A stretch of DNA of 64,000 bases from Tribonema minus. Lineage: Eukaryota > Sar > Xanthophyceae > Tribonematales > Tribonemataceae. This document shows, piece by piece, positions 6,150-61,700 of this stretch. The position numbers and the translations under genes are program-made. The DNA is taken from positions 220,288-284,287 of the forward strand of contig JAFCMP010000096.1 of the NCBI GenBank assembly GCA_017506865.1, in the 5' to 3' direction. The notes under the pieces were generated by a model. That model saw only the letters and a list, made by a program, of their open reading frames with translations, had not been told where the DNA came from and did no database searches. Position 1 is the stretch's first letter; every line of letters starts with the position of its first letter.

Positions 6150-9100
6150 GTGCAACCAGACCCACGAAATCCTCTTGAGACCCCAGAGATGGTGGCGACA
6201 GCAGCCTGGAGGCTGGCTAGCAGAGCAGCAACCCGGCAACGACCATTGGCACCATCATGGCTATGTGCCAGTGGCACCACAGCGCAGCACAACAGCAGTG
6301 GGAATAGGGACAGCCCCTATGGCGCTGCCACCCTGCTGGCGGCAGCACTGGCAGCGACCCTGTTCGGCGCACAGCAACGACAGCAGCAGCCAGCGCAATG
6401 CGAGGAGGTCCACGTGCATACGCCCCACTACAAGGACCGCAAGGTGGAAGCGGCCGCTGCCGGTGGCGACACTTACTTCAGCAGCGACTACGATTACTTG
6501 AAGGTCATTTCCGGATCCTCCAACAGGAAGCTGGCGAAGGAAATAGCGGATCTGCTTGGCGTGGGACTGGGCGATTGCGAGCTGGGAAGGTATGCCGATG
6601 GGGAGATCAGCATCAATCTGGGGGAGCAAGTACGAGGGAAGGTGAGAGTGCCGCCGGGCGTCCCGCGCGCGCTGATCTCACTTCAAGCATTCGCCCTTGT
6701 ATTCAAAAGCGCTCAGAGTAAGCACTGCGCAGCACTGCATATGGCGTTTTCTAGTGCGCGTCTGTGGTGTCAATGCGTTGAGACCCGGAGAGCGATATGT
6801 CACTGAGCAGTGCCACCAGTGAGCACATGGGCTGTGCGCTGTCTGTGCTTCCCAACTCGATGCAGGCACCATGAGCCTCAGCTGCCGTTTGCCGGCACGC
6901 GCTTGAGCGACGCGCGCGCAGTGCACATTTCGCGCGCGCGGTATACTCAGTGCCCAATTCTCACTGTCCATCAAACAGTAGGCGCTGAGCACGCCCGAGC
7001 TGACCAGCGGTGGGGGGCGTTGCACTCCCGACGCGGCGCGATGGTAGCTGGCTCCGCAAATAAGCGTCTGAAAAAAGTGGGGTGAACTCGTGCAGGAGTG
7101 CAGTGTCTAAGCAGTGCACGACGTGGGGTGACGGAAGTCGGCACACTGGTCTCACTGTGGCGTGCCGGCATGCGCGTTTACATACCGGAATGCGGTGCGC
7201 ACCGTGCAAGCCTTCCATGCGACTCTCTGACCGCGAACTGAATTTATGCCCTTGGCACGTACGTATACATGGCAACAGCAAGCGCTGCTGCCTCGCTGCA
7301 GACTTTGTGCGCAGATTGTCCATGTGCACAGCGTCGCTGCGCGCGCCGTGAGTACCAGCCCAGCAGTACACCTGTACTCTACGAGTTCAGTTGAAGCATT
7401 GTCAAATCGGCGCTCTGCTCTGCAAGCGCCAGTCCGCTACCGTTCGATGAGCGTTGCCAGTGCGCAGACAGTGGCGACAGTGCCGCTGCGCATGAGCTGC
7501 GCACCGGCATGCTGAACAGCGACACAGCGTAGCTCATGACGCAGCAGGTTACCTGTCCTCATGAAGCCCAATTGAAGCTGACTGCCCCAGAATGCGCCAT
7601 GTATATTCAGCTCTGCAGGATGGCCAACGGCTGACATCTCAGATGCAGTCCCTTGGCTGATGCACGACGATGACCGTAGCGCAACCCTGAGGGGTGAGCA
7701 CTCACGTGCGCGTGGGAGGTGCCCGCGATGTGCAGCCGCTGGCACGTAAGCCTAACCCTAATGACACCCTCTCATACCAGGCAGTGCCTACAGTCAACTC
7801 GCCTTGCCATCCACGGGGCTTTACGCACCTGTATTTGACTCATACCCCAGCCCCAACGCCTGTTGTCACATGCCCCTCAACTTTGCCGCTCGCATACAAA
7901 ACGCAGCCGGCCGTGCGACTGACCACTATTCCCGTCTATCGTTGCCGCCGCCTCCGCCGCCGCTGCCGTCGCTGCCTCCGCTGCCGCCGCCGCTGCTGCC
8001 ACCGCCACCGCCGCCACCACTGCCGCTGCTGCCGCCTCTGCCACCGCCGCCGCCGCTGCCGCCGCTGCTGCCGCCGCCGCCGCTGCTGCCGCCGCCGCCG
8101 CCTCCGCTGCCGCCGCCACCGCTGCCGCCGCCGCCGCAGGACGTGTACGTGATGCAGAGCGGGCAGCGCCCCGTCAACGACCACCTCATGGAGCTGCTGC
8201 TGCTCGTCTCGACGGTGCAGCGCGCGAGCGCCAAGCGCGTCACCGCCGTCATCCCGTACTTCCCGTACAAGCACCACCGCCGCGGCGTGCCCATCAGCAC
8301 GGGGCTCAACTCGCGCTTCCTGCTGAGCGCGGCCGCGGACTTTGGGCACTGCCTCGAGGTGCGACGCGGTGCGCGTGTTTTTCGCGGCGTGGCACGTCGC
8401 CACGGGCATTCATTTTCTCGATGTGTGGGTTTCTTTCGTGCAGCATCGTTCGCTGTGTGTGCGGATTCCGTGCCGTGCGGCATTGGGCACTGCCTTGAGG
8501 TGCACGCCTCTTTCGCGCGCGCGACACGCCGCCTTGGACATCTGTTTCTTGATGTGTGGAGTTTATAGTCGTGCGGCGCGCGCGCTCGCCCCAGCGCTCG
8601 GTGCGCCTGTCGCGCGCGCTTGCGCGGGCCTTCGCACTGCTTTCTTTGCACTGTCTCATTCGGTTACGCCATTGTGGAGGCGCAATGCGACGCGTCGTCG
8701 ACCGATGCAGCTGTCGTCCGCGCTCCGCTCGCGTCTGCCGCTGAGTGGGGCGGGGTAGTACTTCGGCCGCCGCATTTTAAAGCCAGCCTGTCAAAAAATG
8801 CAATCTCCCACAGCACGCATGCAAGCACCTTGCGGCGCATTGCCTCAGTAGCAGCCCCGTCGCGATCGCGCTTACTTCCACACACGCAGTTGCACTTCTG
8901 CGGAAAGCGGCGGCAACTTCAACTTTAACTGCCGCAGGTGTTGGGCATCGACCGCATCATCGCCGTGGACCTCGAGCGCCCGGGCTCCATCGCACTTCCA
9001 CACACGCAGTTGCACTTCTGCGGAAGCGACTTCTCACACGCCCTCCCCCCCTCCCCCCCCCCTGCCCTCCCCCACTTCAACTTCAACTCCAACTTCAACT

Positions 9101-10048
9101 GCCGCAGGTGATGGGCGTGGACCGCATCATCGCCGTGGACCTCGAGCGCCCGGGCTCGTCCAACGAGTCCAACTTCTTCTCGCCCGGCGTCCCCGTGGAG
9201 ACGCTCCTCACGACCAACCTCTTTGCGCACCACATCGCGCGCGCGGCGTTCCCCCCTGCGCACGGCGGCGACATCCTCGTCGTCTCCCCGTCCAGCGCGC
9301 TTATGAAGAAGTCGGTGGGGTTCGCGACGGTGCTCGCGCGCGCGCTGCCGAACGCGGACGTGCGCGTGACGACGTTCGTCCACTCGACGGCGCGCGCGGG
9401 GCCCGTGGACATCTCCACCAACGAGCTCATCGCGAGCGGCGACGTGCGCGGCCGCGACGTCGTCCTCGTCGACGAGCTCATAGGTGAGCGCTGCTGCTGC
9501 TGCCGCCGCTGCTGCTGCTGCCGCTGCTTGGCGACTGACTTGCATCTGCTGCCGCTGCATTTGCTGCTGCTACTGCTGCCGCCGCTGCCAGGTGATTGAC
9601 TAGCTGCTGCTGCCGCTGTCGCATTTACCGCTGCCGCTCCTGCTGCTGCTGCCGCGGCTGCGGTATTTGTTGCTGCCGCTGCTGCTGCTGCCACTGCCGC
9701 TGTCGCCGCCGCTGCCGCGCGACTGACGCCGCCGCTGCCGCTGCCGCCGCCGCCGCAGACACGGGCGGCACGCTCGCGACGCTCGCGCGCAAGCTCAAGG
9801 AGATGGGCGCGCGCGACATCTACGTCTACTCGAGCCACGCGCTCTTCAACAACGACTGCCTGGAGCTGCTAGAGCGCGCGCCCATCACGCGCGTGTACGT
9901 GTCCAACACGATTGAGCACGACCCCGCTGCGGTCGCCGCGAGCAGCAAGGTGGAGGTCGTGTCGATCGGGCCGCAGCTCGCCAAGCTGATCTACGCCGAG
10001 CACGTGCGCTCCGCGGACATCTTCAAGGAGGAGATGACGTTCGGGTGA
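6150..10048 (+). CDS. Ribose-phosphate pyrophosphokinase (PRPP synthetase), divergent protist type
   Basis: Makes PRPP from ribose 5-phosphate and ATP for nucleotide synthesis. Exons 6150-6641, 8140-8358, 9108-9483 and 9759-10048 give 458 aa; phases 0, 0 and 1 match. The likely start is Met14 (6189): MVATAAWRLASRAATRQR looks like a mitochondrial presequence, and a hydrophobic stretch (ATLLAAALAATLFG) follows. The catalytic core begins at YLKVISGSSNRKLAKEIAD and continues through DVYVMQSG and VIPYFPYKHHRRG. The PRPP-binding loop DELIDTGGTL is formed across intron 3. Two usual features differ: the Arg/Asp/Lys-rich segment after FPY reads KHHRRGVPIST, and the metal-site MDLH reads VDLE. Introns 1 and 3 end in CTG/CCG runs. 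Intron 2 holds partial copies of both flanking exon ends. Confidence 0.88.
6642..8139 (+). other. PRPP synthetase intron 1
   Basis: Bounded by AAG|GTGAGA and CCGCAG|GAC. It holds a short CCTAACCCTAA tract at 7748-7761 and a 200-bp CTG/CCG run (7940-8139) up to the acceptor. The poly-Pro, poly-Ala and Cys-rich frames there are artefacts of that run. Confidence 0.8.
8484..8570 (+). repeat. Partial copy of the PRPP synthetase exon 2 / intron 2 junction
   Basis: GGGCACTGCCTTGAGGTGC here repeats the true exon end and donor at 8344-8362 with one change. The following 65 bp repeat the first part of intron 2 (8363-8440), including a shared TTCTTGATGTGTGG-like segment. The rest of exon 2 is not copied. 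Confidence 0.75.
8865..8987 (+). repeat. Partial copy of the intron 2 / exon 3 junction of PRPP synthetase
   Basis: The block with ACACGCAGTTGCACTTCTGC, a CTTCAACT-rich stretch, GCCGCAG and the first 50 nt of exon 3 (8938-8987) recurs at 8989-9157, where exon 3 continues. The copy would encode VLGIDRIIAVDLERPGS and then runs back into repeated intron sequence. Its acceptor is intact. Confidence 0.85.
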
Positions 10049-11343
10049 GGGGCTACGCAAGGGAGGGGGCTGCTGAGGGGGGTTAGGGGTTAGCTGAAGC
10101 TAAGGGGGGGTGGTGAAGAGGGATGGGGGTAGTTGTGGGTGGCAGGGGTATGTTGGCATGCACCATGAGACTGCCCCCCAGGGTGATTGGGGGTGGCGTT
10201 GGAGGGGGGGGTTGGTAGTGGAGGGGGGGGGGGTAGCTGAGGATTCGGGGGCAGTGCGTAGGGGCATGTTATGGCAAGGCTGCCGGCTACATTGTAGTAC
10301 GGGTGGCATGCCTGGTAGAATGGATAGGCTGCGGCGCTAGGCAACACACACATTGTCCGAGCTGGTAATGTGAACACAGCTGCTCAGTCATGCCAGGCCG
10401 GCATACTGGCGCATTGCTGCGTATCTGTGTTTTGTGCTGTGCCTACAATGTGTTTTTTGCAAGATCCGCCCATGGCGAGCGTGCGTTGTGTCTGCGCTGC
10501 GCGAGCGGCGCTGCGCGTGACGCATAGACAGCGCCAACGGAGGCTCATACACCTGGAAGCATGAATGCAATTGTTGAGAATGAGATGCAGAGCGTGCTTG
10601 GCAGAAGGGGCAGAGGCGTCGATCGCAACAAGCCACTCAGCTGCCGCGCAAATGCGAGTGCCACGCAGCAGGGGCTCCGATTCACCTCGCGCATGCATAC
10701 ACGCCAACACATTGTTTGCGAGGCCGCTGCATGCACATCCCTTCTGAGAGGAGCAATTGGAGGCTTTTAAGTCATACCAGTTGGGTTCAATGCCAGGCAG
10801 GCCTTTTCAGGTGTGATGATCACATTATCACTTTCAACAAGATGACATGCCTGCTCAATGGCTGCTCAGGGCCTGTATGTGCAAGCAGTTTTCAGTCAAA
10901 CCGTGGCACGCTGGCCCACTGCAGCGCCACCAAATGAGTTCAACAGCACCCTGACAAGGCTGTCAGCAACGTACTGGCGTGCAGACTGCTTCCGGCCCCC
11001 CCCCCTGCCGACCCCACCCCCCCCGCTTCTTCTTGACAGTGGCTGGTGGTGCACTTGCTCGGTGCCCAAGACGTCCTGCGGCACCGCAAGCGCAGGAGCA
11101 AGCCTGTGTAAACAGCAGCTGGCGTGATGCCGCGGTCTTGTCGACAACACAGCAGTATGTAGAGTAGATACCTTGTCGTGCACCCTTCCCCTCTCCCCCC
11201 CCTTCTGTAAACCGCCAAAGCCGTTTACACCCGTGCTTGTACCACCCCAGTCCAGGCGTACTTATTGTGTTGTTTGGAGCAGTCGCGGCCTATGCCGGTG
11301 CCCCTTACAGCAGCGGTGCTTACGCCCCCCCCCCGCGCGGTCA
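10049..11343. other. Tail-to-tail intergenic region
   Basis: Lies between the stops of PRPP synthetase (+) and TDP1 (-). It begins with about 200 bp of G-rich sequence (10050-10250); the remainder is unremarkable. No gene or polyadenylation signal was identified. Confidence 0.5.
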
Positions 11344-14300
11344 CTACATGTTGTTGCCGAAGTACGATTCCCATGTGCGCCCCATGGTGTCCAAGCCGCT
11401 GCGCGGGATGTGGTAGCACCAGGGCTCGTCGCCGGCCTGCGGCGAAGTGCAAGTTGAGGTTCACAATTAGGGCGGACGCTCCGCCGTGTGAGCCTGACCG
11501 ATCACGTTCAACATGCACTCTCGTCGACGCTTTCAAGTGACGCATGACATGTTGGTGCTGGAAGTTCAGGCACATTGGCGACGTCCAGCACTAGCCACCC
11601 CTGCCTTGCCAGCTGTCAGCGGACGCAAGACTCGAGTCCGGTATTGATTGCGCTTGATGTGGGATCTTGAAAGTAAATGAAGGTTCAAGCGCGATACGCC
11701 CCTGAGCTTGACGATGCTTCAGCAGTGTTGCTGGCCATTCAGCGGGTGACCGGTGTGGAGTGGACGTTGAGGCTGCCAGTGAATGAATCAATGAATGAAT
11801 TGCAAACATGAATGAATGAATGGAATACTGCCGCCCCTTGCGACCACCGCAAACCCCACGTCACCAACGCAGGTGGCGCAGCACTTCAGATTGCCACGGC
11901 TGAACCTCTCTAGGAGCCACTGCGTCAGCTGAAATACGACTCAGCCGAGTCCATGTCGCCACACTTCAAGTGGAGAGCCCAATGATTCGACATGAAATGA
12001 AGCAGTGCTCAGTAATGCTCGATGCGTACATACATACCTTAGGGTTGTAGGGCGGCGGGTCGAGGGAGTAGGGTATCGGCAGCAGGTCCAGAGGCAGCCC
12101 CACCTCGTCAGCCTCAGCGCCGAGGCCGCCGTACGTAAGTCGCAGTGCCTGGCAGGAAACACGGCAAGCGGGGGGCGGCAGAGGCGTGAGATGCGTGCGC
12201 GCAACACGCGACTCATCCCGGCGATAATAAAATCTTCGCGAAGTATACGTCCAGAAACATATGCCTTACATGAGCCGCAGCGCATGCGGAGGACGCAGCA
12301 GACGGGGCGGCAGCGGCGTGAGATGCGCTTGCGCGACTCGCGACTCGTGAGACGCGCATGCACGACTCGCGACTCGTGCCGGTGATGAATATACATACGT
12401 CTATATACATATGCCGGGCAACGCCGGCGGAGGACGCGGCAGACGGGGCAGCAGCGGCCTGAGACGCGCGTGCGCAACACGCACCTCGTGCCAACAATAA
12501 TACATATGCTTGTATAGACGACATATATATGTACTTTGAAGTATATGAATATGAGGACCTGAGGCCGACGTATGCGCGGGGCTGATGACGCGGACAAGAT
12601 CCAGCGCGCGCGTCGCGGCGCCTGCTGGCGACGCTGTGGCGGCGACAGCGGCTCTGGTACCGCAGTTCGCCGCAGACGAGACGTGGCGGCAGCACGATGA
12701 TCGTGTGACCGTCGATGGGGCGTTGCAGCTTAGGGTTAGGGTTAGGGTTAGGGTTAGGGTTAGCGCCGCCACATGAAGGACTGCCCGCAGGTTCGTCAGT
12801 CACCCGGCGCGCAGCACTGCCGCGGGTTAGGGTTAGGGTTAGACACGGCTAAACCTAACTAACCCCAAAGTGCGGCGAGGGCAGCCGCGCTGGCGCCGTG
12901 CCTGCGTGAGGGGCGCCGGCGCGATCCGCAGCGGCGACCGGCAGCAGCAAGCGTTCGAAGGCACAGAACGATTGCGCCTTGACCATGTGTACTTACGAGC
13001 ACCTTCGTGTGGGGGTGAGCTCGAGCTTAACGCCAACCCTGGTGCATACGCCCAGCGCGCGGCCGCGACAGCGGTGAGGCCCCAGGACCTGCGTTGCGAC
13101 GGCGTTGCGGTGAGGGCCACCACGTCACCAGCGCCTAACCTTAACCCTAACCCTAACCCTAACCCTAACTTAAACCGTACGCCCTCGCACTGCGGCGCGC
13201 GACAGACCGCCTGGCTGCAGCAGCGGAGCCGCCGCCGCGCGTACACGCACCTCGAGGGGGCCCCCGGGGTCCACGGAGAACCCCGCCGTCGCGTCCGGCG
13301 CGCGCAGGCGGCTCGGCAGGAACAGCACGCCCATCTCGTACGACTTGATGCTCAGCGCGCCGTTCGCCTGCAGCTGGCCCCACGCCGTGGTGCTCATGTT
13401 GGCGCTCGTCAGCATGAACCACGCCACCGTGCCCGCGTCGTTGTCGGTCCCGTAGCCGTTGCCGCCGCCGCTGCTGCCGCCACCGCCGCCGCCAGTGCCC
13501 CTGCCATTGCTGCCGCCGCCATTGCTGCCGCCGCTGCTACTGCCGCCGCCGCCGCCGCTGCTGCCGCCACTGCCACTGCCGCCACCGCTCCCTGCCGCCG
13601 CCGCCGCAGGCGCAAAGTAGCGGCAGTAGCTCTTGATGTGCGGCATGGCGCGCGCGCGGCCGCGGCGCGGCGCGCCGGCCCAGCGGTGCAGGAACGGCGC
13701 GACGGATGCGCGGAGGTCGCGCGTGGGCGCGGCGGCGCGCGCGTCCGCGAGCGCCGCGCCCTTGTACGCGGCGAGCAGGTTGCCGGGCGACGCGGGGATG
13801 GAGTTGCCCGCGGACCACCCCGCCAGGCACGTCCTGGTTGCGGTGGTTGCGAGCGCGGGGGCGTTTCGGGGGGGGAGGTGAGGGTGCTGCTGACGCGGCG
13901 GCGCAGCCGCGCGGCGGCGGATGCGGAGGGGGCGAGAACGGTGTGCGGCGGGCGCTGCCGCTTGCTGCTGCTGCTACTGCTGCGCGTCTCTCAACGGTGC
14001 GGGCGACTTCAGGCGGCGGGGTCCTGCGGTGCTGCGTTGACGCGATGTCGCTGATGGCGTCGGGCGCTGCGCCCACCCCACCCCTTGCCCCTCTTCCACG
14101 GATGAAAGAGCAGCCAATGTGCTTTGCACATAAAGCACGCATTTGGGTCAGGGCTAGCGGCAAATATAGGGTTAACTTTGGGGTGGGCGCTCACCTCACG
14201 GCGGCGACCGTGGGCCACACGATCTTCATGTCGCCGCGCAGCGGCGGCCCGCGCGCCTGGTCCAGCGTGCCCTTCCCCATCATGCTCTCGTAGAACGTCC

Positions 14301-18017: not shown

Positions 18018-18140
18018 GCAGTGTCAGCAAGTCAACTTGGTTTCTTGCCAACTTTCGTTTGCCGCCATCCCGACTTGAAGTTTGCTTTTGAAAACAAGAG
18101 AACTAAAGTGTGGTGAACGTGAACTGGTGCACAACTGACA
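18018..18140. promoter_or_regulatory. Short divergent promoter between TDP1 and the WW-domain gene
   Basis: Only 123 bp separate the two start codons. The sequence is less GC-rich than the flanking genes and has no obvious TATA box. Shared bidirectional control is inferred from the spacing. Confidence 0.6.
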
Positions 18141-22272: not shown

Positions 22273-25200
22273 TCACACGCTCGCGGCGACGAACGCGGCG
22301 CTGAGCTTCCAGCTGTGCGCCTGCTGCGATGCGCGCGCGGGGATCGGCGGCCACGCCACCTGCGTGCCGTGCGCGGCGCCGCTGCTGCCGCCGCCGCTGG
22401 ATCCCTGCGCGTTGCGTGAGAAGCGTAGCCATCGTGCGGCGCGGGTGAGTGATGAGCGACGCGCGGCGCATTGCCGTGTCAGCGACTGCATACCCCCAAA
22501 CGCAGAGAACAGCAGCATCATAGTATACTTCAAGTAGCTCAATGCACACATACCAGCATGCAAGCACTATTTTTGCATTGAACGTCATCGTACAGTGGCG
22601 TCATTGCCCGCGGCGGCAAGCTCATATTCACAGAAGTGAATCAAAGCGGGGCTTTGTACAGACGGCTTGCACCAGCCATGTCTCGTGACCCTTCGCTTTC
22701 GTCTGCAATCTCAAGTAGAAGTATGAAAGACAATGCCGCCCACGCTATTTGTTGAGCGCTGTCAGTTTTCTACTTCAATATTGCATGCAGAAGCGTCACC
22801 AAGTGTCGTCGGGCGCTGTCAACTTCACCTTGGCAGGCAGAGCGTTACACGCATCATCGCTGTCGCTTTACCTTGGGCCGCCGCAGTGTCAGAACTTCAG
22901 AAGCATTGTTGGGCGCAGTCAACTGCACCTGGGCAGGCGAAGCAACATACTTCAAGTACATCTTCAAGCGCTGGCACTCGGCAACTTCACCTTGGCAGGT
23001 GGAGCGTCACTGGCATCACTGATGACTGAGCGCTGGTGCGTTTTCTCAACTTCACCTTGGCGGGCGGAGCGTCGCACGTGTCGTCCGGCACGTCCTCGCC
23101 CCTCTCCAGCTGCAGTATGTAGTCCACGACAGCCGCGTTCGTGAGGTCTATGCCGTGCTCCTTCGCATCGGCGATCATCTCTGGCGTTGCATTGCGCCAG
23201 TCTGCGTCGCAATAGCGGCGGCAGAGGGATGCGGGCGGCGGACGCCTCCGATGATGAGCGCTGCTGCATGCGCTCAGCGCTGCTCAACTTCAACATTGAC
23301 TTCAGATTCAAGTTCAACATTCCACCGTCTCTCACGTACTTCCGAAATACTCCTCCAAGAAATCGCTTGGCGTCTGCGATCATATCCGGCGTCGCGTTGC
23401 GCCAGTCTGCGTCGCGGCGGCGGCGGCGAAGAGATGCAGGCGGCAGCGGGCGGCTCCATGATGAGGAGCACTGCTGCACGCAGTCAGCACGATGCGCGAG
23501 GCGTGCGCCGCCGCACGTTCTCTGATCAACTTCAACACAAAGCTCAACTTCATGTTCAACATTCCACCATCTCTCAACCTCCTTCCAAAATACTCCAAGA
23601 AAGCACTTCGCGTCGGCGATCATCTCCGGCATCGTGTTGCGCCAGTCTGCGTCGCTGCGGCGGCGGCGGAGAGATGCGGGCGGCGGCAGACGGCTCCATC
23701 ATGATCTCTATGCATGCATATCTGGCACTTTTATGTATGCACTATAGTAAGTGTCTGTATGCATGTATGCACTAACAAGTGTCTATATGTCCCCACGCGC
23801 ACACTGAGTTCGCCGCGAGCACTCGTGGAGCTCTTTCGCGCGCCCCAAGCGGTAGTGATCATTTCAATAGGAGCAGTCGTCGGCCTACGCCTGTAGGAAA
23901 ACGCCTCGCACCAGTTTCATGTGACTTACCCGAGTAGCACCAACGCTTTTTTTTTGTTACAGGTACTTGAAGTATTTGATGAATTACCTGGCCGCTGCTG
24001 GCCCACGGAGCCGTGGTTCGGCGCGCGCTGCTGCTGCTGCTGCTGCTGCTCGGCGACCGCCTGCGCGAGCACGCCGCGCATGTTGTCGAGCGTCTCCGCA
24101 ATGACGGCGGCCTTGTCCTCAGCGCCCTGCAGTTGCGGGATGGTGGTAACGTGGGTGAACAGTACGGCAGCAAATCACGCGACAATGGTGGCATACAGCG
24201 GCGAACCAGGTTTGCAATATGGAGACACTGCGTCTAGACGCATCTGACAGTCTCAGTGTGCGTGGCCTGAAGGGAAGGGGGGCCGGGGAGGGGGGCTCGC
24301 AGGACTGAGCGCAGAGAGCGCGGACGCAACAGCCACAATCAAGCAACGTGCTGCGCAGTACCAACCATGATTTCTGCCCGCTTCGGCGTGACAGCCCATC
24401 AAGCATAACTCACGTACACGCGCAGCAAGCAGCAGCGCTCACCTCGCGCGTGGCCTCCTCCAGCTCCTTCTCCAGCTGCTCGATCGCCCCCTGCAGGTCG
24501 CGACGCGTCCGTATTCCGCCGCCGCTGCCGCCGCCGCCGCCGCCTGCCCCACCTGCATCCTTCGCACCCACCCTTTCTGCCGTCCCCACCACCACCTCCC
24601 CCCAGCCGAACAGCCCGCTGAACGCGCCGCGCTCGCGCCGCCGCAGCGCCGCGCGCTCTGCGCGCCGCCGCCGCAGCTCGCGCGCCGCCGCCGCGCCGCC
24701 GCCGAGCGCCGCGGCGCGCGCAAGGTCGGCGACGGCGAGGTCGAGCGCGTGCGCGCCGGCGCCGGCGGACGCGAGGCGCGCCTGCGCGCGGCGGAAGTGC
24801 GCCTTGGCGGAGGTGGGGTGGGTGTGAATGGCGCGCGTGCACGCGGCGACGGCGGCGGCGTGGCGGCCGCGGCGCCCGTACGCGAGCGCGATGTTGAGGT
24901 AGCACGCCACCTTGAAGTCCCTGAGACGGGGGAAGGGGGGGGTGGGGGGTCAATGGCAGGGCCTGACTCTAACCCCTGACCCTTAGTGATGCGGAGCGCT
25001 GCGGGCGGCGGTGCGGAAGCATGGCAGCAGGAGGGCATCGCGCGAGGTGAGCGTGCGACTGCGCGGCGCGCGGCGCGGCGCGGCGCGTGCTGCAGGGGGA
25101 GAGGTATGAGCAATCGGGATTCGGGTCGACGCCCGACCCAGTTTTCGGCCCCCGACCTGACAAACCTCGAACAGTCTCGAACCTCCAAAATCGTGACATA

Positions 25201-37000: not shown

Positions 37001-40000
37001 TCTCAGGCAGTCATCTCTCGCTTGTGCCGTTGCGCACGGCTGCCCCGTCTGTTTGCGGCGCGGGCTGAGCGCTGCCACCTGAGCACTGCTGCGTCACCCA
37101 GCCCGAGCGGCGAATCAGCGCGCTCGCGCAATGTTTGGAAGCAGTGTCCACCTGCGGGAGCGCAGCAGCGAAGCCCACCGTTCTCTCCAGTGCGACCGCT
37201 CTTGGGGCTCTACAAGTTCAACTGTGAAGTACGCCTGTCCTTTTCGTTGCGAACACCGGGTGTTCAGTACGACTGCGCTTCTACTCAGTGCAATCGCACT
37301 GCATGGACAGCACCGCTCAGCTTCAGGCCCCGTGCTTCACACTCTGCGGCGCTCGCCGCGCGCTGCACAACTTCAAATGTGAAGTGCCCATGTTCTTTTG
37401 CTTTGCGCAGGTGGTGAACGTCCTGGCGTACGTCCTGTTCTGCATGGCGCACCTCGCCACTGAGGAGTGCGCGCACAACATCACCAAGCCCCAGGTCCGT
37501 GCACAGGGATTGGTAGGGTAAGGGCTGAATGCGACATTGTCAGGCCATACATACATGCCGTTGTCGTTGCTAAACGGGGTAATTTTATCACTGGTCTGTG
37601 CATGGGGGATGGTGAGTTAGGGTTCAAATACGACACTGCCAGGCCATACCTACCGTGATTGTCGCCAACAGGGGTATTTAGCCTCACAGGTTACAGAGTT
37701 CTTAAAGCTGCAGCATGGGGCTTAGTAGCCACAGGCAGCAGCAGCAGCAGCTCCGGTGCTCAGCAGCAGGCAACGCGCGACCACGAAACAAACGCCTAAG
37801 GGTCACACGCCGCCGCAGTATGTCTGCAGGCGTGCACATGCTCAAACGCCCTGCCGCCGCCGTCGGAGTGAGTGGCCGACTGCGCTCTCGTGCCGCAGCA
37901 GCTGGACTGGGGATGCCTTTCTTACATTTTTTCAACTCGTGCTGCATGATGTCAATCACCGCTTCCCTCACCTGTACCCCCGCCGGGCCGCCGCCGCCGC
38001 AGCAGCTGCTAGAGGAGCTTTCCGCGCTCGTGCCGCTGCAACTGATCACGGGACGACTTATCATGCCCGCTCGACTCGTGCCGTATGAATCCATAAACGC
38101 ATTCTTCACCGGTGGCCATCCCACCCCTTCCACCCCCCCAGCCGCCCCTGCGCCGCCGCTGCAGCTGCTGGAGGAGCTCCGCGCTCGTGCCGCTGCTGCT
38201 GGACGCCGACGACCTCTTCTCACGCCCGCTCAACTTGTGCCGCGTGAACCCCCCATTGCCATCGCATGTACAGATTTCTTCACCAGTGCCCCGCGCCGCT
38301 GCCGCTGCCGCAGCTCCTAGAGGAGCTTTCGGCGCTCGCGCCGCTGCTGCTGGGACGCCAACAACCTCTCATGCCCGGTCAACTGCTCCCGCACGAAATC
38401 GATTCCCACATTCCCCCTTTCGTCACCTGCGCCCCCCCCCCCCCGCCCCCCCCCTTGCGCCGCCGCTGCCGCAGCTGCTGGAGGAGCTCTCCGCGCTCGT
38501 GCCGCTGCTGCTGGATGCCGACGACCTGTGCGCGCGCGCCGCCGCGAGCTTCGGCGCGCTCGGCACGGTCCTCGTCAAGTGCGCGCTCGCGTACGTGCTG
38601 CTGCGCCTCGGGCGCACTGCGGAGTGCCTGCGCGCGCTCGAGCCCGTGGTGCCGCTGCTGAGCCTCCACCCCGGCCTCGTGCGCCAGTCCGCGGTCTGGC
38701 ACCTCGTGCACTGCGCCATGGTCATTCATCTCGAGCACGGCTGCTTCCAGGTGAGAGGGCGTCGCTTTCAGTACACCTTGGTACACACACGGTACACTAA
38801 TAGTACACGTCAGTATAGTATAGTGGTGCCGCTGCTGAGCCTCCACCCCGGCCTCATGCGCCAGTGCGCGTGCTGGCACCTCGTGCACTGCGCCATGGTC
38901 ATCCACCTGGAGCACGGCTGTTTCCAGGTGAGAGGGCGCAGTACACTCTTGTACAGCATAGTACGCTGCGTACAGTACAGCACAGTACAGATGCTGCTGA
39001 GTGTCCACCGCAGCCCTTGTGCGCGAGTCCGCGTGCCGACACCTCGTACACTGCGGCCATCTCAACCTTTTCATTGATGATATGACGTCTAATGAGGTAC
39101 TGTTATACATATCATTGCTCGCAGGACTACCAGATCCTGCGCACCATGTACAACGCAGTGCTGCGTGAGCCGTCCTCAATAGCCAACTTTAATATTGATG
39201 TTGCACTTGCACTTACGCTTGCGCAGGACTGCGATATCCTGCGCACCATGAAGTACAACATGCTGCTGCCTCGGTAGTAAACTTCCACATCGCTGCTGCT
39301 GCCCTTGGGTAAACATACGCGTTTGCAGGACTACGAGATCCTGCGCACCATGTACAACACGGTGCTGCGCGAGTCGTGGGCGGCGCCGCGCTTCCGCGAG
39401 GTGCGCTCCTTCCCCGCCGCGCACGACGTGCACCACTACGGCTCCAGCTTCCTGTGCACCAACCCGCTGTGCCTCGCCATCTACACGGACCTGTCGGGCG
39501 GCGCGCCGCCGCCGCCGCAGCAGCAGCAGCAGCCGCGGCAGCAGGCGGCGGCGGCGGCGCCGCGGCCCGTGGCGCCGCCGCCGCTGCACGCGCACCAGCA
39601 GCAGCAGCCAGGTACGTGCGGCGCGCGTCAGTGCTCTTCCTCGAGGCGGCTTCGCCCGCGTGCTACGGTGCGCAGCGATCGCTGTGTGTGTGCCCTACTA
39701 TGCTTCGTGGTGAACTGGACCCGCGGCGCGCGCCACCTGAGCGTCGCGCGGCGCTGCTGCCGCTGCCGCTGCGCCTCGTCCGCGCTACAGTTTGCTCACA
39801 AGTCGTCCCGGTGAGTGCGACTCGACGCCGCTCGTGCTGCGCCTCGCACATGCGCGCGCGCTTGACTTACGCGACGGCCGCCCCGCATCTGTCGTGCGTA
39901 AGCGCTCGCGTCAACATGTGCTCACATGTGTGTGTACACACGACCGTTGCGCCGCACCTGTCATGCGCAGCGCGACACATTTGCTCCCTCACGTCAACAT

Positions 40001-41106
40001 GCTCCCTCGCGTCAACATGCGCTCACATGTGTATACACAATCGCCGCGCCGCGCTGCCATGCGCAGCGCGACACGACGTACCCGTGCGGCCGCCGCCCGC
40101 GGTGCCGCCGTCGCGCGCCGCGCCGCCCACCTGGCTCGCAACATCCCCTGGGGGGTGGGCAGGGCAAAACGACATCGGCAGCAGCAGCGGCGGCGGCGGT
40201 TTTGTGCGCATGGGAACGTCCGGGTCTCCGCCGCCGCTGCCGCCGCAGCAGGCGCCGCCGCAGGCGCAGCGGCCGGTGCTGCCGCCGCCGCCGCTGCTGC
40301 AGCAGCAGCAGCCGCACTTTGCGCTGGCGGCGGAGGGGGCAGCGGGGCATCCGCGCGCGCGCTTCAAGCGACGGCGCGGCGACAGCCTCAGCAGCAGCGG
40401 CGCTGAGCTGCTGCCACCAGCAGCAGGCTCCGCAGCGGCTGCGGCGGCGGCCGCGACGGCGCACGCAGAGGCAGCTGCTGCTGCCGACGGTGCAGAGTTC
40501 ACACCTGCACGAGCTTGGCAGCTGCCGCCAGCAGCTCAGCTGCCGCCAGCAGCTCAGCTGCAGCAGCAGCAGCAGCACCAGTATCACCCACAGCATCAAC
40601 ACCACCATCAGCACTCCTTAAGTTATGGCAACGCCGGCGGCGGCAATGACATGGACAGCGATAGCAGCGCCTGCGGCAGCGGCAGCGGCAGCGGCGGAAG
40701 CGCCGGCGGCGCGCCAGCCGCGCAGCGGCACGCGCCGGCGGCGCCGCTGCCGCCGCCGCTGCTGCTGCTGCCGCACCAGCACCACTCCCCCGGCGGCGCG
40801 AGAAACGCGCATGTGCACAGCGCTCAGCACGCACACGCCGCCGCAGACCCCGGAGGCCAGGCGCTGGGGCCCGAGCAGTCGGCGCGCGGCGCGCGCCGCG
40901 ACCGCAACGCGCGCCTCCTCGAGGAGGCGGCGGGCAAGGCGCTGCGCGGCGGGCTGCTCGAGAGGGGGCCGTTCGCGGGGCTCGATGACAGGGGGGGGGC
41001 GGCGGCGGCGGGGAGGCTGTCTGAGCATCATCAGCTGCACCGCGGCGCCCCGCTGCAGCTCCTAGACGGCGGCGCCGCGTCGCCGCCGACGAGCGGCGGG
41101 GACTGA
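31019..41106 (+). CDS. Zn(II)2Cys6 binuclear-cluster transcription regulator
   Basis: Ten exons: 31019-31162, 31449-31733, 33065-33133, 33981-34088, 35170-35363, 36545-36809, 37411-37494, 38475-38750, 39329-39611 and 40163-41106 (883 aa). All phases agree. The start could also be 30938. The DNA-binding cluster is CDFCTKKKVRCDGNKPCSQC (Cys28, 31, 38, 44, 47) with the sixth Cys (54) in exon 2 (RRSLECVFSVCQRSGPR), giving CX2CX6CX5CX2CX6C. A Gly/Ser/Pro linker, then helical segments follow (ALLNYFLK; VCAETAAAWLAAACAHDL; VVNVLAYVLFCMAHLA; LLEELSALVPLLLDADDL; DYEILRTMYNTVLRESW), resembling the middle region of Zn2Cys6 regulators. The C-terminus is Gln/His/Pro/Ala-rich, as in activation domains. Extra exons between 31734 and 33980 cannot be excluded. 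Junction copies flank exons 5, 8 and 9. Confidence 0.8.
32733..32755 (+). repeat. Interstitial (TTAGGG)n tract
   Basis: GG plus three TTAGGG units, in intron 2 of the Zn2Cys6 gene. Confidence 0.9.
33412..33447 (+). repeat. Interstitial (TTAGGG)n tract
   Basis: Five perfect TTAGGG units and a partial one, in intron 3 of the Zn2Cys6 gene. It follows a stretch with three near-copies of GTGGTACCTGACCC. Confidence 0.95.
34158..34181. repeat. G homopolymer
   Basis: An uninterrupted G run of more than 20 nt in intron 4 of the Zn2Cys6 gene. It may be unstable in replication and assembly. Confidence 0.85.
34925..34985 (+). repeat. Copy of the Zn2Cys6 exon 5 acceptor junction
   Basis: CGCAGCCCCACGAGGCGGACG...GACCAGGA(A/G)GCGCGGCAG repeats the true acceptor and first 45 nt of exon 5 (35165-35215). 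It keeps an intact acceptor about 235 bp upstream. Confidence 0.85.
35885..36505. mobile_element. Composite dispersed repeat (A copy 2 + B copy 2)
   Basis: 35885-36090 matches repeat A (25920) in direct orientation, and 36095-36505 matches repeat B (30320) in inverted orientation. The two are joined without a gap. On the minus strand one frame of 259 codons runs through both parts (36652-35876), with a Cys-rich end (GACCSSCPMRDCC), so this may be the fuller copy of an element whose other copies are fragments. No transposase motif is recognised. It lies in intron 5 of the Zn2Cys6 gene, ending about 40 bp before the exon 6 acceptor. Confidence 0.6.
36918..36942 (+). repeat. Interstitial (TTAGGG)n tract, interrupted
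   Basis: TAGGGTTAGGGTTAGCGTAG then GGTTAG, in intron 6 of the Zn2Cys6 gene. Confidence 0.85.
37992..38372 (+). repeat. Three copies of the Zn2Cys6 exon 8 acceptor junction
   Basis: Copies at about 37992-38050, 38152-38220 and 38292-38372, spaced 148-163 bp. Each has a CCGCCGCTGC-type tract, CAG and CTGCT(A/G)GAGGAGCT...GCGCTCGTGCCGCTG as in the true start of exon 8 (38461-38525). Intervening intron text (GCCCG(C/G)TCAAC..., CCCCATTCCC-like) is also repeated. The later parts of exon 8 are not copied. Confidence 0.85.
38827..39060 (+). repeat. Copies of the Zn2Cys6 exon 8 donor junction
   Basis: 38827-38940 repeats the last 100 nt of exon 8 and its donor (38648-38762; GTGCCGCTGCTGAGCCTCCA to TTCCAGGTGAGAGGGCG) with few changes, keeping an open frame. 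A third, decayed copy without a donor lies at about 38993-39060. GTACA-rich spacers separate the copies. Confidence 0.85.
39119..39280 (+). repeat. Two copies of the Zn2Cys6 exon 9 acceptor junction
   Basis: 39119-39172 and 39222-39277 repeat GCAGGACTACGAGATCCTGC and GCACCATGTACAACACGGTG from the true exon 9 start (39323-39375). Both keep the acceptor. Spacing is about 105 bp. Confidence 0.85.
39905..40080 (+). repeat. Two-copy tandem repeat in Zn2Cys6 intron 9
   Basis: CAACATGTGCTCACATGTGT...CATGCGCAGCGCGACAC (about 39912-39978) recurs at about 40012-40077 with changes. Confidence 0.75.
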
Positions 41107-41177: not shown

Positions 41178-41261
41178 GCGCGCTCCCCCCGTCCGCCCCC
41201 TCCCCTGACAGGGGGGAGGTGGGAGGTCTGTCAGGGGAGGGGGCGGACGGGGGGAGCGCGC
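41178..41261. other. Perfect 33-bp inverted repeat (hairpin) after the Zn2Cys6 gene
   Basis: Arms 41178-41210 and 41229-41261 are exact reverse complements (GCGCGCTCCCCCCGTCCGCC...), with an 18-nt G-rich loop. It starts 72 bp after the stop codon, so it is probably in the 3' UTR. It may affect transcript stability or termination, or be a small foldback element. Confidence 0.8.
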
Positions 41262-42867: not shown

Positions 42868-43041
42868 CAGGAGCGTGTTGCTGGCGCAGGGGGGATGTCC
42901 TTGCTTGGCGCACAGCTGTCCAATGACGAAAATACAGGCACTGCATCACGCGAGAAACAAGCGCAGATGAGTGGGCAAGTGCACGTGCAGTTGATTGGCA
43001 GGTGTCACTGTTATAAAAGAAAACATTGATTAAACTGATGT

Positions 43042-43970
43042 TTTTTGTACAAGGCAGAATGGTGCAAATAGAGCATCCCAACAGGCACACAAAACACACT
43101 CAAGAAACAAAGTCATTTGTGGTCAAGATGGATTGGCATTGTTTGTGTGGAGAAGGAAAAGGGGGAATGGTGTTTCCCCCGCCGCCCGTGGAAGCAGACT
43201 ACAGGGCTTAGCCCGTTGCATTATCCCACGAAGACCCCCCCCCCTTTCTCTCTCCACCCCACTTCCCTCACCTACTCTTGACCAAAATAGGCGTGGGCGG
43301 GTGGGTAATTTTGATTGTACTGGTGTTGAAGCTGTATGCCTTACGTTACCGTGCTTGGCCAGAGCAAGTATGAGGATGCACCAAGAACCTCATTCCTGCG
43401 GTAGACCCTCTTAAAACCGGTGGCCCCATTCTTGGGTCCAAAAAACTGCATTTATCTCTCGCTGCGCTACCGAAAAACGCATCCCTTTTTGTACAAGGCA
43501 GAATGGTGCAAATAGAGCATCCCAACAGACACACAAAACACACTCAAGAAACAAAGTCATTTGTGGTCAAGATGGATTGGCATTGTTTGTGTGGAGAAGG
43601 AAAAGGGGGAATGGTGTTTCCCCCGCCGCCCCTGGGAGCAGACTACAGGGCTTAGCCCGTTGCATAATCCATTTGACTGCTCCCAGTGGACGGCCGTACT
43701 CCACATGCCTCCATAAGGTACATACCGTGACCTTGCCTCCTGATCTGTAACGGCTACTTCCTATCGTACATAAGACCCTGCCCTGAATTTTGATTGTACT
43801 GGTGTTGAAGCTGTATGCCTTACGTTACCGTGCTTGGCCAGAGCAAGTATGAGGATGCACCAAGAACCTCATTCCTGCGGTAGACCCTCTTAAAACCGGT
43901 GGCCCCATTCTTGGGTCCAAAAAACTGCATTTATCTCTCGCTGCGCTACCGAAAAACACATCCCTTTAGT
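43042..43970. repeat. Two-copy tandem repeat, about 450-480 bp per unit
   Basis: Two blocks occur twice: GTACAAGGCAGAATGGTGCA... (43046-43225 and 43491-43665) and TTTTGATTGTACTGGTGTTG... (43309-43490 and 43787-43968). Identity is near-perfect, but the segment between the blocks differs completely (83 against 121 bp). Unit 2 has a 10-bp stem (43632-43641 with 43677-43686). The sequence is AT-richer than its surroundings. Its nature is unknown. Confidence 0.9.
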
Positions 43971-48568: not shown

Positions 48569-50973
48569 CTAGTCAAAATTCACTTTCTCGGCGGTCGCGT
48601 CCTCGTCTATCTCGTCGAGTAGTGCCTCCACCTGCAGCGGCGGCACGACAGGGCACGCACGGTTCACTGATCAAATGTGCACTTCAACTTTATCGGTACA
48701 CTTCAACTTGACAGGTCTGTACTCAAGGGGTACGTGCGAACTCCGGTCTGTTATGTCGCGCCCTGCTGCACCAACCGTCAGTGCTTCTTCGCGCCCTACG
48801 CGAGAACCAACAACGAGCACAGTCACGTTCTGCAAGGCCCGCCGTTCACGCTTTGAATGGCTGAGACGCCATGAACAGCGCGTCCACGTGCTCCTGTGCA
48901 CGTGAGGTTTGCGGTGACATGTGAAGGCAGGACCGCACCCCTCCTCACCCCATCCTCCCCATGCCCACACATGCGCACACCATCATGGCGGCGCGCAAAA
49001 CCCTAACCCACACCGTTGAAGCTAACCCTAACCCCACGGCGCGCGGCGCCGATCACTGCGGCACTGCTGCTGAGAGCGGTTCGGTGGCAGGCCCTGTGCG
49101 ATGCCAGCTCCACGCCACGACCGCTTGCCAGGCTCACGCACATGTACACATACATCTCATCTTTGGAGTGTATATGCGCCATGCACATTCAGCGTGATGC
49201 TGTCGCATAAAAACCTCGAAACAAGAGCCTCACCTCGTCCTCCTGCAGCTCCTCAAACCGCTTCTGAATCACCGCCGGCTCGTAGTCGCGCACGCTGCTG
49301 CGCTTTCGCCATGAACTTCACCATGATACTTCAACAAAGGAACTTCAAAAAAAGAGACGCACCTCATCCTCCTGCAGCTCCTCGAACCGCTTCTGCCTGC
49401 TCGTAGTCGCGGGCGCTGCCACAACGGTTGCGCTTCTGCCATAAACTTGAACATGATGCTTCAAAATTCGAAAATTGACGTCCCTCGTCGTCCTGCAGCT
49501 CCTCGAACCGCTGCTGTATCACCGCCTGCTCGTAGTCGCGCAGCTGCTGCGCATACGTCATGTTCTTCAACACAATACTTCAATATCATAACTTCAAGAA
49601 AGACGCACCTCGTCCTCCTGCAGCTCCTCGAACCGCTTCTGAATCACCGCCTGCTCGTAGTCGCGCAGCTGCTGCGCGTACGTCATGTTCTTCAACATGC
49701 TCCTTCAACCTTAAAACTTCAAGAGAGACTCACCTCGTCCTCCTGCAGCTCCTCGAACCGCTTCTGAATCACCGCCTGCACGTAGTCGCGCAGCTGCTGC
49801 GCGTACGTCATAATCTTCAACATGATACTTCAACATCAAAACTTCAAGAAGAGACGCACCCCGTCCTCCTGCAGCTCCTCGAACCGCTTCTGAATTACCG
49901 CCTGCTCGTAGTCGCGCAGCTGCTGCGCCTTCACCATGAACTGCACCATGATACTTCAACATGATACTTCAACATCATAACTTCAAAAGTGACGCACCTC
50001 ATCCTCCTGCAGCTCCTCGAACCGCTTCTGAATCACCGCCTGCTCGTAGTCGCGCAGCTGCTGCGCGTAGGTCATGTTCTTGGTCGCCACGCGGAAGAAG
50101 TACGTGCCCGCCCACCCCACCATCCCCAGCAGTATGTATGTAACCGTCACGTAGTTGCCTGCGGCAGCGCGCAGCGGGGGCGTCGGCAGCAGCGCTCGTC
50201 AGCTTATGCAAGTGGAGCGCGTGCTGCGCCGCTCCCGAGCAATGTAGCGGCTGACTGCAGAGCGTCCCGCGGCACCCACACACCACAAAATCAATTGTCA
50301 AATTGAAGTACGCTTGCACGCGCAACGGGCGCCACTGAGAACGCATAACGTGTGACCGCGTGCAACACAGCACAAGTTCAAGTGTCAAGCTGAACCACGT
50401 TAGAACGCGCAACAGAGCCACTAAAAACGCAAAACGTGTGACCACGCGCAGCACAGCGAATGCAAGTATGCTTGCACGCGCAACGGGCGCGGCTCACACT
50501 CAAAACGCGTGACCGCGCGCAGCAGCACCACGGTACTGGTTGCGCATACGAGCATGCAGGAGTGTCACCTGCTTTCAGCACACAAGTTCAACTGCCAAAT
50601 TGAAGTATGCTAGCATGCCCGTTGACTTGTCTGATCGAAGTACGCTCGCACGTTAAAGGGGCGCCGCTAACACGCTGAATGTGTGATCGCGAGCAGCAGC
50701 GTGACGTGTGCTGTGATTGCACATCCCAGGCATGAGTGAGAGTCACCTGCTTTCAGCACAAGTTCAATTGTCAGATTGAAGTACGGGGCCCCCCAACACG
50801 CAAAATGTATGACTGCATGCAGTGGCGTGGCGCGCTGTGATCGCGCACGCGAGCATCATGCGAGTGCGGGAGAGTCACCTGCTTTGAGCCCGTCCATGCC
50901 CTGCGACGTGAGCACGAAGTACGCCGCGATCGGCAGCAGCACCGAGAGGACGGGGACCACCACCGCGCCGCCC
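48569..50973 (-). CDS. DUF3007-like plastid membrane protein (5' exon not found)
   Basis: Three exons: 50973-50879, 50158-49998 and 48631-48569, joined at phases 1 and 0. The protein reads VVVPVLSVLLPIAAYFVLTS (membrane segment 1), then after intron 1 NYVTVTYILLGMVGWAGTYF (segment 2), FRVATKNMTYAQQLRDYEQ and a coiled tail ending DEIDEDATAEKVNFD. The sequence resembles the cyanobacterial/plastid DUF3007 family, whose function is unknown. Residues with a Met, signal and transit peptides must lie upstream; the first visible exon needs a phase-2 partner, which I did not find in 50974-52000. Acceptors are CCGCCGCAG- or CCGCTGCAG-type. Intron 2 holds six copies of the exon end. Confidence 0.75.
49229..49990 (-). 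repeat. Array of six copies of the DUF3007 exon 2 end and donor
   Basis: Six copies end near 49229, 49363, 49481, 49607, 49733 and 49855; the true exon end is at 49998. The spacing is 118-143 bp. In the gene sense each unit has an AACATGAC(C/G)TACGCGCAG-like start, about 63 nt coding QQLRDYEQAV...FEELQEDE, and a GAG|GTGCGTC donor, followed by a TTGAAG-rich spacer. Four keep the frame and the donor; two (49229, 49363) are damaged by an insertion or deletion. Confidence 0.9.
50280..50780 (-). repeat. Degenerate tandem repeats carrying copies of a donor junction
   Basis: Units of about 110-170 bp share CAATTGTCAAATTGAAGTA(C/T)G, CTTGCACGCGCAACGGGCGC and CGTGTGACCGCG-like words. Two units (about 50563-50580 and 50737-50755) contain AGAGTCACCTGCTTTCAGC, which repeats the donor of the first DUF3007 exon (50870-50890, AGAGTCACCTGCTTTGAGC). 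Confidence 0.75.
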
Positions 50974-58700: not shown

Positions 58701-61700
58701 TGTTGTGCATTTACAGCGTAGAGGGCAGCCGCTCGCTACATGGCCTCACATTGCGTGCCGGCGCATGCCATGTCACCTGATGATAGCCGTTGTCACCAGG
58801 CCATTGGCGAGCCTCCCCTCTTCTTGGCGTCGTGTGCCTCTTCAGCAATCAAGGCTGCCATGCGCGAACTTGCGTCGCTGAGGAACAACGTCCTGGTCCG
58901 CTGTCCACCACACACCCCCAGGGCTTCTCGGGTCTGCAAAACGCGACATCAGACATTGCGGGATGTGGAAAACGCTGGCGATCTGTTGCACCGCCTTGCA
59001 CACTGTCGCGGCGCCTCTTTCACCTCATTAGGACGATCGTCCTGCCACATGCGCAAGCGCTCGTGCACCAGCGCTCCCGCCGTAATCGCCGCAACCGACT
59101 GTAGCGCGCCTCGTACTTCACCTCTGCTGCGGTGACACGCCTGTAGTGCCCCCCTTTCTCACGATTTGTCCCGCCGCTCGCACGCGCGCACGCGTGCACC
59201 TGCGCTCCCACCGCCATAACTGTCGTAACCGCCGCAACCGACTGCGCAGGCCGCTTCCACGCAGGCGCCGCTGAGGAGACTCCCAGAGGGCGAGGCGTTC
59301 CCCTGGTGCGGCTACCTGCTGGACACCGCGACGTGCGCGGTGCGCGGCAACTTCAAGCGCTACTGCGGCGCCGAGCCCGTGCAGGACGTGCTGATGGTGC
59401 GTACGTGTGAAAGCAACTGGTGCATGGGCTTTTTGGCGCCCCGAACGAGAAGTAAGAAAAAGTACAGCTGGAAAGAAATGCATTTGACACCGCGTAGCTC
59501 CGAGGGACCGAACTTCAACTACGCGCGCTGCTGCGGCGGGAGGCGCGCAGAGGACGCGCAGATGGCCTGTTTGCGAACGCTTCGGTGGCTGCGCAGGCGT
59601 CGACAAACCCTAACCCCAACCCTCAGCGTTTTAGGACGCCACCCGCGCCCCCCGCCTGTGTCCGCTGCGCGGCACGCTCACGCTTGGCACTGCGCTTTTT
59701 CCCTTCTTTGTACCTTTGGGTTAGGTTATGCGTTAGGTCAGCTTACTTCGCACTGTTGCCAGACTGGACACCAAGATGCAAAGCCGAGATACCGGTGCGA
59801 CCCGCGTGCTATGCTCGCAGCTGTCCTCGCGACAGATGGCGGGGGCGCGCCCGGCTCGCAGCAGCGCTCCACGCATGGCGTCGCTCCGCGCCGCAGCACC
59901 AGCAACGCTGTCACAATTTTCAAGTGCCGTCCATGCCTCTGGGGCGTACCCTGTACAGTGCGTGTTATTCGTTTCGCTTCAGTTGCGCTGACGGCATGCA
60001 GAGCGGCATCAGCACCTCCCCGCCCCTCGAGCGCCGCCCCCCCCCCCCTCCCCCCCCCCCCCCCCCCCCCCCCGACGAAGCGCTGCTCGCCGCTCCCGCC
60101 GCCGCCGCCACTTCCGCCGCCGCTCGACCGCTCTGACTTCACGGCAACCCCGCGCGCCGCTGCCGCCGCCGCCGCAGGTGGAGACGGCGCAGCGGCCGGG
60201 CGCGGCGCTGCGCACGCGCGTCAAGGGCTTCCTCGCGCCCAAGTGCCACGCCATGGTGCTGTGCGCGCGGCTCAACGGCGCGCGCGGCGTCGCGCGCAAC
60301 GTGTACGAGCTGCTCGTGCTGTGCGCCGCCAAGGCCGCCGCGTACGTGCTCGCGATGCCCGGCGGGTGAGAGAGCGGTGCTTGAAGTTAATGTTGAAGTT
60401 GATGTTGAAGTTGGCAGTGATTGACTGGCTGCGGCGTCGCGCGCAACGTGTACGAGCTGCTGGTGCTGTGCGCCGCCAAGGCCGCCGCGTACGTGTGCGC
60501 GATGCCCGGCGGGTGAGAGAGCAACGCGCTCAGAGTTGTGCGCGCCGCGACCGCTGCGCAATCATCTGCTTCTCAAACGCTCGGCCTTGCTCGCCGTCAG
60601 GAAACGATGCGGCGCCGTCGGTCCAGCGCGCCAGCCTTGCACCACCATATGAAACGCTAACTTACCCCCTGGATGGCCCTGCTTCACAGCCACTGCGCCA
60701 TGCGACCCGTAGCCGAGCACTGGCCTTCTGTCGCATGAGCCGCATCGCATTGCCTCGCGCGGCGCGACGGTGTCACTGCGCGTGCAACCAAGGCCGGCCG
60801 TAAGGGCATAGCTCCTGCATATCGCTTCGACGTGCCGCTGCTGTGAAGGCGCGCTCGCGCATGATGTCATTGCCGCAGCGCAGAGCACAATGCCGGGGGC
60901 GCCCATCGCCGCGCGCTTTCTACCGCTGCACAGTCATTTCGACATTCGCTCAAGGTCACCTCTTCTGTGCCGTGCTGCAGCGTCGAGCGCAACCCCAAGC
61001 ACGTCGCGGCGTGCGTGCGCGAGGCGGTGCGCTACGCCTTCGGCCTCGTGCGCAGCCGCGCCGCGCGCGCCGCCGCCGCACCGCCGCCGCCCCCCGCAGC
61101 GGCCGCCGCCGCGCCGCCGCCCCCCGCAGCAGCAGCAGCGCCGCCGCCGCCGCCGCCGCCGTGCCCCGTGACGCGCGCGCAGGTGCTGTGGCTCGGCACG
61201 CACGCATTCCACGCCGTGTTCTCGCGGCGCGACCTCGGCGGCAGCAGCGGCGCGCTGCGCGGCATCGCAGCAGCGCTCGCCAAGGACCTGCGGCGGCTTT
61301 CGCTGCGCGGCGCGGCGGACGCGTGGGCGCTGGGCGAGGTTGCCAAGCAGTCGGCGGTGCTGTCGCCGGCATCAATGTGTGCCGCAGGGGCGGCGCGGCG
61401 GCGGCGGCGACGGCGGCGGCGGCGGCGCAGCGCTGAGGGCGGCGCTGACTGCGGGCTGGGCAGCTGCTGCTGTCGAAGTGGAAGACGTCGCGGCGCGGTG
61501 CCGCCGATACGCTGGTGCGGAGTGCGCGGTTGCGGGAAAGTCAGCGGCTGGTGTGAATCAGCATGCGCCACATGGGGCCGGGCTACTGTGGCCGCGTGGT
61601 GTGCGGTCGCACTTACCGCACTTCAGAGGCTGGCCCGCCGCCAGCGCACGAGGGCCGGTGCTACTTATATTAAGAGGGCATCGCGGAAGGCATTGCTGCG

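Follow-up and report, generated by a model that had tools for sequence, protein, structure and literature searches.

Echoes of exon edges in the window

The window analysed here, a 64-kb stretch at the end of its contig (JAFCMP010000096.1, positions 220,288 to 284,287) in the 158-Mb, 554-contig assembly of the yellow-green alga Tribonema minus, carries genes for PRPP synthetase, a TPR protein (minus strand, 22-27 kb), a Zn2Cys6 protein (plus strand, 31-41 kb), a DUF3007 protein and TERT; Pfam confirms TPR_1, Zn_clus, DUF3007 and TERT_C in these genes. At exon edges of all five, a unit made of an intron edge and the adjoining exon sequence is repeated in tandem, and the surplus copies are here called echoes. 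Such copies had been reported in an earlier note, and self-BLAST, Tandem Repeats Finder (TRF) and direct reading, by which the window copies were located, recover them at the same places. The layout is constant: at acceptors the real junction closes the series of copies, at donors it opens the series, and the surplus copies lie inside the intron. Nine junctions carry an echo (two in the PRPP synthetase gene, four in the Zn2Cys6 gene and one each in the TPR, DUF3007 and TERT genes), about ten if an uncertain one at 34487 is included; position 12149 gives an extra weak match in the per-edge test described below. The earlier note was right that both donors and acceptors are hit, while its figure of at least twelve affected junctions is not quite reached.

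In the PRPP synthetase gene (plus strand), the real donor-edge unit spans 8342-8432, with the exon ending at 8358 and the GT at 8359-8360. Self-comparison and reading reveal its echo within the intron at 8483-8564, with the GT kept; it comprises 17 nt of exon at 74% identity and is absent from the matches of the per-edge test. An acceptor echo at 8914-8987, with the AG kept, is 93% identical to the real acceptor-edge unit at 9084-9157, where the exon starts at 9108. The annotated protein P0001, to which the spliced PRPP synthetase is 100% identical over the query, uses the outer donor junction and joins the outer exons with no extra exon between them. Long GCC/GCT triplet tracts at 7944-8137 and 9490-9756 reach the PRPP acceptors and occupy the usual place of the pyrimidine tract; the TERT exon near 60178 likewise follows a tract of this type.

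The TPR gene holds an array at 23161-23717 with about three copies at the acceptor side of an exon edge that lies at approximately 23179-23246, its position depending on the gene model. In the Zn2Cys6 gene, the array at 34256-34606 surrounds the modelled acceptor 34487 and is uncertain, since the exon lies 99% inside the array and may itself be an echo. The array catalogue and the per-edge test place a further echo together with its acceptor edge (35170) at 34927-35205. Self-comparison and the per-edge test agree on the next three arrays: about four copies of an acceptor-edge unit at 37983-38527, the last being the real edge (38475); three copies of a donor-edge unit at 38646-39060, the first being real (exon end 38750, donor 38751); and three copies of the next acceptor-edge unit at 39120-39377, the last being real (39329). 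A single intron, 38751-39328, holds two donor echoes and, downstream of them, two acceptor echoes.

On the minus strand, 49177-50081 contains donor-edge units of the DUF3007 gene of about 125-130 nt (6.7 copies by TRF), with the real edge at 49998 and the other copies skipped in the annotated protein P0121. This protein, of 126 amino acids, contains the repeat unit once and joins the outer exons; the DUF3007 protein matches JKP88DRAFT_193912 of Tribonema minus at 99%. The TERT gene (plus strand) carries a donor-edge unit and one 97% identical echo at 60284-60522 (exon end 60365, donor 60366). For comparison, the array catalogue also lists arrays away from edges: 12172-12490, in a modelled intron and classed as interior with no strand assigned, and the intron-interior arrays 39905-40074 (plus strand) and 50278-50783 (minus strand).

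Duplication arrays in the wider sample

The sample comprised the window and 29 random 10-kb loci of Tribonema minus (354 kb in total; 30 loci were drawn, and one N-rich locus was excluded). Gene models came from our own ab initio exon-chain gene finder with a stronger intron penalty; a first, hidden-Markov gene finder had been rejected because its predictions collapsed to tiny exons, and a second because of over-prediction. In the 354 kb there are 93 local duplication arrays. A modelled exon edge is straddled by 31 of them; another 14 pair a mostly or wholly exonic copy with a noncoding one, 43 are interior to noncoding DNA and 5 lie within exons. Their period has a median of 129 nt (quartiles 105-158, for arrays with periods of 50-420 nt). 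Duplication is local and exceeds chance, as under one filter 223 high-scoring segment pairs (HSPs) fall at offsets of 30-1500 nt and 6 at offsets of 3000-4470 nt; the copies run head-to-tail and lie near each other, an arrangement also characteristic of the short tandem duplications left when breaks or nicks are repaired.

Echoes are real and present well beyond the window. Pfam domains in echo-bearing genes include GTP_EFTU (at locus L018, in a gene that we take to be eIF5B), NAD kinase, XRN, VDE, ALAD, PDEase, ECH_2, SF3b1, RAP and TERT_C, and for two of six proteins in one batch Pfam returned no family.

The earlier note had assumed that random tandem duplication would hit exon interiors and intron interiors as often as junctions. 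This null is not supported, as duplications within exons are lost: arrays in which either copy is exonic throughout its pair number 4 against 13.6 expected by random placement among the 63 random-locus arrays, and 0 against 4.4 among the 16 arrays of the window (5 and 1, respectively, when arrays are classed by their best pair only). A duplication across an edge necessarily puts the surplus copy on the intron side, which by itself predicts numerous echoes at junctions, and for units as long as about 130 nt such crossings are frequent for geometric reasons. Much of the junction pattern follows from abundant tandem duplication of this unit size combined with the loss of exon-interior copies.

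A probable excess of copies at exon edges

In the per-edge test, an intron-side echo was found at 49 of the 425 modelled splice edges in the sample, with donors (23/216) and acceptors (26/209) hit about equally. Triplet-rich junctions, which the earlier note had proposed as a driver, are not needed, given this parity and given that, in the PRPP synthetase, Zn2Cys6 and TERT genes, the donors inspected have no adjoining tract. An intron-side copy spanning the edge occurs at 47 of 321 splice edges; the one-sided controls (26 of 500 intron and 25 of 491 intergenic positions) understate interior duplication, as an interior copy may lie on either side.

Whether edges are hit beyond what uniform duplication delivers was addressed at the level of arrays. 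Random placement within genes with collapsed introns gave 12.0 ± 2.8 straddling arrays out of 45, against 23 observed, without correction for detection. Forward simulations with uniform duplication, neutral decay and constrained exons were passed through the same detection pipeline. When matched by locus (16 runs) they yielded 6-16 straddling and 22-55 interior arrays, compared with 31 and 43 observed. When matched by gene (20 runs) the straddling fraction was 0.246 ± 0.053 (maximum 0.36) against 23/45, and with the mostly exonic class added 0.344 ± 0.057 (maximum 0.44) against 31/53; less matched earlier simulations had shown a larger apparent excess than the gene-matched ones.

An excess of this kind might come from exons in general being hotter for duplication, through open chromatin or transcription, with only the edge parts surviving and the splice sites being incidental, which would be a special form of mutational bias. 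Exons are indeed richer in GC than noncoding DNA (0.71 and 0.555), and the units of interior repeats are slightly GC-rich (0.579, p 0.035). Adjustment for GC, however, barely shifts the odds ratio of the edge excess (from 4.6 to 4.3 [2.4-8.8], without detection correction), which makes GC content a weak candidate for its cause. Low-complexity filtering was likewise rejected as a cause, with the genic edge fraction staying at 0.57-0.59 at four entropy cut-offs. Start and stop edges, at which hot exons should leave echoes as well, at first resembled splice edges (7/65 and 49/425). Five of these seven are splice sites by eye, which changes the comparison to 2/60 against 54/430 (Fisher p 0.03), or to 2/60 against 50/426 (p 0.046) without the four edges of DUF3007 echo copies; this reclassification was post hoc, with the matches already seen, and start and stop calls are unreliable. 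One plausible stop-edge echo stands at L008:7702, where an echo at L008:7589-7768 spans an apparent stop codon (Pfam returned no family for the piece sent). Generally hot exons are a possible account on these grounds, to which we give distinctly less than even odds.

The copies at edges appear to recur. At 18 of 25 edges with several copies, the nearest echo is the best match to the real edge (10.4 by chance), and at least two HSPs are present in 32 of 52 edge arrays but in 13 of 41 others (p 0.006), a tally in which any exon-overlapping HSP defines an edge array, so that long arrays, being likelier to meet an edge, are favoured. Both results fit a real edge that was duplicated again and again, each round displacing the older copies inward. 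By gene, echoes are clustered, as 25 of the 45 genes with at least four edges have none. A gene with a Sec7 domain (locus L021) has 17 modelled exons and no duplication array, while other genes echo at many edges.

Several observations weigh against a preference for edges. Checks by Pfam or annotation cover only part of the modelled genes, and 7 of the 49 echo edges belong to exons of which 80% or more falls within arrays, with four of the seven on DUF3007 echo copies that the models treat as exons; without such exons 42 of 426 edges remain, a count that includes edges untestable in the set of 425. Of the 14 mostly exonic arrays, 7 have at most 7 nt of noncoding sequence in the exonic copy, and some exon-overlapping arrays do not cross an edge. 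In a two-sided test, 75 of 353 junctions (a set including echo copies modelled as exons) compare with 72, 67 and 27 out of 600 positions each in introns, exons and intergenic DNA, and the contrast with intron and exon positions is below twofold. Random placement equalised for detection, with 16 arrays that failed its filter and 3 exonic ones left out, reduces the excess to 1.47-fold (26 of 74 straddling against 17.7 ± 3.4). The simulation makes single duplications and no runaway arrays, and rate variation on a finer scale could mimic an edge effect. With exons masked, detection is no longer affected by the slower divergence of pairs that include exon sequence; 28 of 45 masked arrays then touch an edge or belong to an exon-overlapping array (simulated 0.223 ± 0.083, maximum 0.34, 12 runs), but 17 of these 28 count only through such membership, and the 11 of 45 (0.244) that touch an edge directly are inside the simulated range (mean 0.152, maximum 0.25). 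Masked duplicate coverage is flat toward junctions, without a rise (5-8% within 400 nt, compared with 6.8% in the intergenic DNA of 18 random loci); beyond 400 nt it peaks at 15-21% in the random loci and drops in the window.

Pure neutral tandem duplication, with purging of exons, a detection advantage of exon-bearing copies and zero junction bias, would agree with the flat masked coverage, the touching class within the simulated range, the modest ratio after equalised placement and the neutral decay described below. Yet the observed straddling fraction or ratio was reached in none of the 20 gene-matched and none of the 16 locus-matched runs, and the combined edge fraction in none of the 12 exon-masked runs. 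In genes with a Pfam match, 18 of 26 straddling or interior arrays straddle, against about 7.2 expected by geometry (a hand tally without detection correction, excluding five mostly exonic arrays). We consider a complete lack of junction bias rather unlikely. The enrichment over random positions suspected in the earlier note is partly supported: the excess persists once gene, GC and, to some extent, detection are matched, and it is missing from the masked coverage and the directly touching class. An edge excess of about 2-3-fold in odds over uniform duplication is likely, though not proven.

Decay of the copies

In 77 echo copies, mismatches in the exon part occur at rates of 0.067, 0.066 and 0.136 at codon positions 1, 2 and 3, and at 0.135 in the intron part; this ratio of 1:1:2:2 is expected when only the real exon is constrained. 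Of 45 indels in the exon part, 36 shift the frame. The GT is kept in 32 of 44 copies, where neutral decay predicts 77%. Neither codon-position mismatch nor indels nor GT retention in these 77 copies gives a sign of coding or donor-decoy selection. The AG is kept in 29 of 33 copies, mildly more than the 68% expected (p 0.008). The earlier note's remark that nearly all copies keep AG or GT is roughly right, although neutral decay by itself predicts retention of 77% for the GT and 68% for the AG. Compared with the simulations, echoes contain a shorter exon part (median 50.5 nt against 66; Kolmogorov-Smirnov p 0.013) and an intron part of no different length (p 0.65). Whole exons with both splice sites and a preserved frame are not what is found, in view of the short exon part and the prevalence of frameshifts.

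Selection might retain echoes that serve as backup splice sites or, as the earlier note had considered, as decoys or as alternative exons in the making. The AG retention fits this idea, and the short exon part may reflect selection against recognisable exons. The chance-level GT retention, and substitutions and frameshifts like those of unconstrained sequence, contradict it for decoy donors and new exons, and the annotated PRPP synthetase and DUF3007 proteins skip their echoes; we regard selective retention as very improbable. Judged by their sequence, echoes decay neutrally and look like skipped leftovers. From the two annotated proteins checked (PRPP synthetase and DUF3007), we infer that the outer junction is probably the one in general use.

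Other repeats and motifs

Outside arrays, the hexamer TTGAAG/CTTCAA is 4-5 times more frequent in noncoding DNA than base composition predicts, and its density rises by a further factor of about 1.7 in array noncoding DNA. Gene-sense TTGAAG is concentrated within 50 nt of donors (35/139, against 11/93 for CTTCAA) and is possibly an intronic splicing motif; examples are at 60381-60413, 49230-50000 and 9080-9100 of the window and in introns of random loci. The modelled intergenic stretch 43042-43967 contains two pairs of direct repeats of about 180 nt, 98-99% identical and about 440-480 nt apart, which are apparently younger than most echoes and could represent a recent duplication or a mobile element. 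Interstitial telomere-type runs of TTAGGG/CCTAAC occur at 12730-12763, 13134-13169 and 33412-33446.

Discussion

We hypothesize that frequent tandem duplication, the loss of exon-interior copies and a recurrent duplication of edges at about 2-3 times the uniform odds together account for the echoes, and we assign this combination a probability of roughly 0.57. The noncoding DNA of Tribonema minus gains short head-to-tail duplications at a high rate, and those within exons are lost. Where a duplication extends over an exon edge, splicing would keep to the outer junction, and the inner copy becomes intron, survives and decays neutrally. Repeated duplication at the same edge would move older copies inward and build multi-copy arrays. 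The excess at edges would be mutational, for instance a by-product of repairing nicks or breaks that form in transcribed exons or at R-loops linked to splicing; our best guess as to its cause is a mutational bias that acts repeatedly at exon edges. A stronger proposal is that a templated local duplication process, tied to transcription or splicing, returns preferentially to exon-intron junctions, and that its copies, of about 50 nt of exon and the intron edge, lengthen introns from both ends like a conveyor belt. We find this proposal doubtful.

Related processes are known. In rice and Arabidopsis, short tandem duplications reportedly result from the repair of staggered nicks or breaks; these, too, leave neighbouring head-to-tail copies in noncoding DNA, each tens to hundreds of nt long, and we know of no edge bias among them. 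Tandem exon duplication, which gives rise to mutually exclusive exons, also leaves extra exon-derived sequence in introns, but most echoes in Tribonema comprise part of an exon and a single splice site, and they are decaying, often with a shifted frame. Introners are dispersed intron-generating elements, near-identical at many loci; within the sampled loci, the repeats in Tribonema are mostly local. In a literature search limited to one open library, no genome-wide account of junction-straddling duplications was recognised.

That tandem duplication can give rise to introns is established for individual cases. In the potato RdRp gene (PMC4974935), an intron-exon stretch was duplicated, and an 83-bp duplication inside an intron is mentioned as well. 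This resembles Tribonema in the tandem duplication across an intron-exon structure; in the few cases described there a new intron arises, whereas in Tribonema an existing intron grows, the inner junction copies are apparently skipped, and many junctions are involved. Direct repeats of 4-30 bp near splice sites are described by Rogers and Bendich (2025; PMC11782384). They are found near intron borders, as are the echoes, but there relate the 5′ to the 3′ border of one intron, whereas in Tribonema the copies take in the junction itself together with about 50 nt of exon.

The echoes are a real feature consisting largely of ordinary tandem duplication filtered by selection, together with a likely, though unproven, preference for exon edges. 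If the edge excess is genome-wide, introns in this lineage would owe much of their growth to copies of the exon edges that flank them, and some mutation process would be coupled to those edges or to splice junctions. If this is true, the alga would offer a natural place to study duplication repair and the neglect by splicing of near-perfect nearby copies of its sites.

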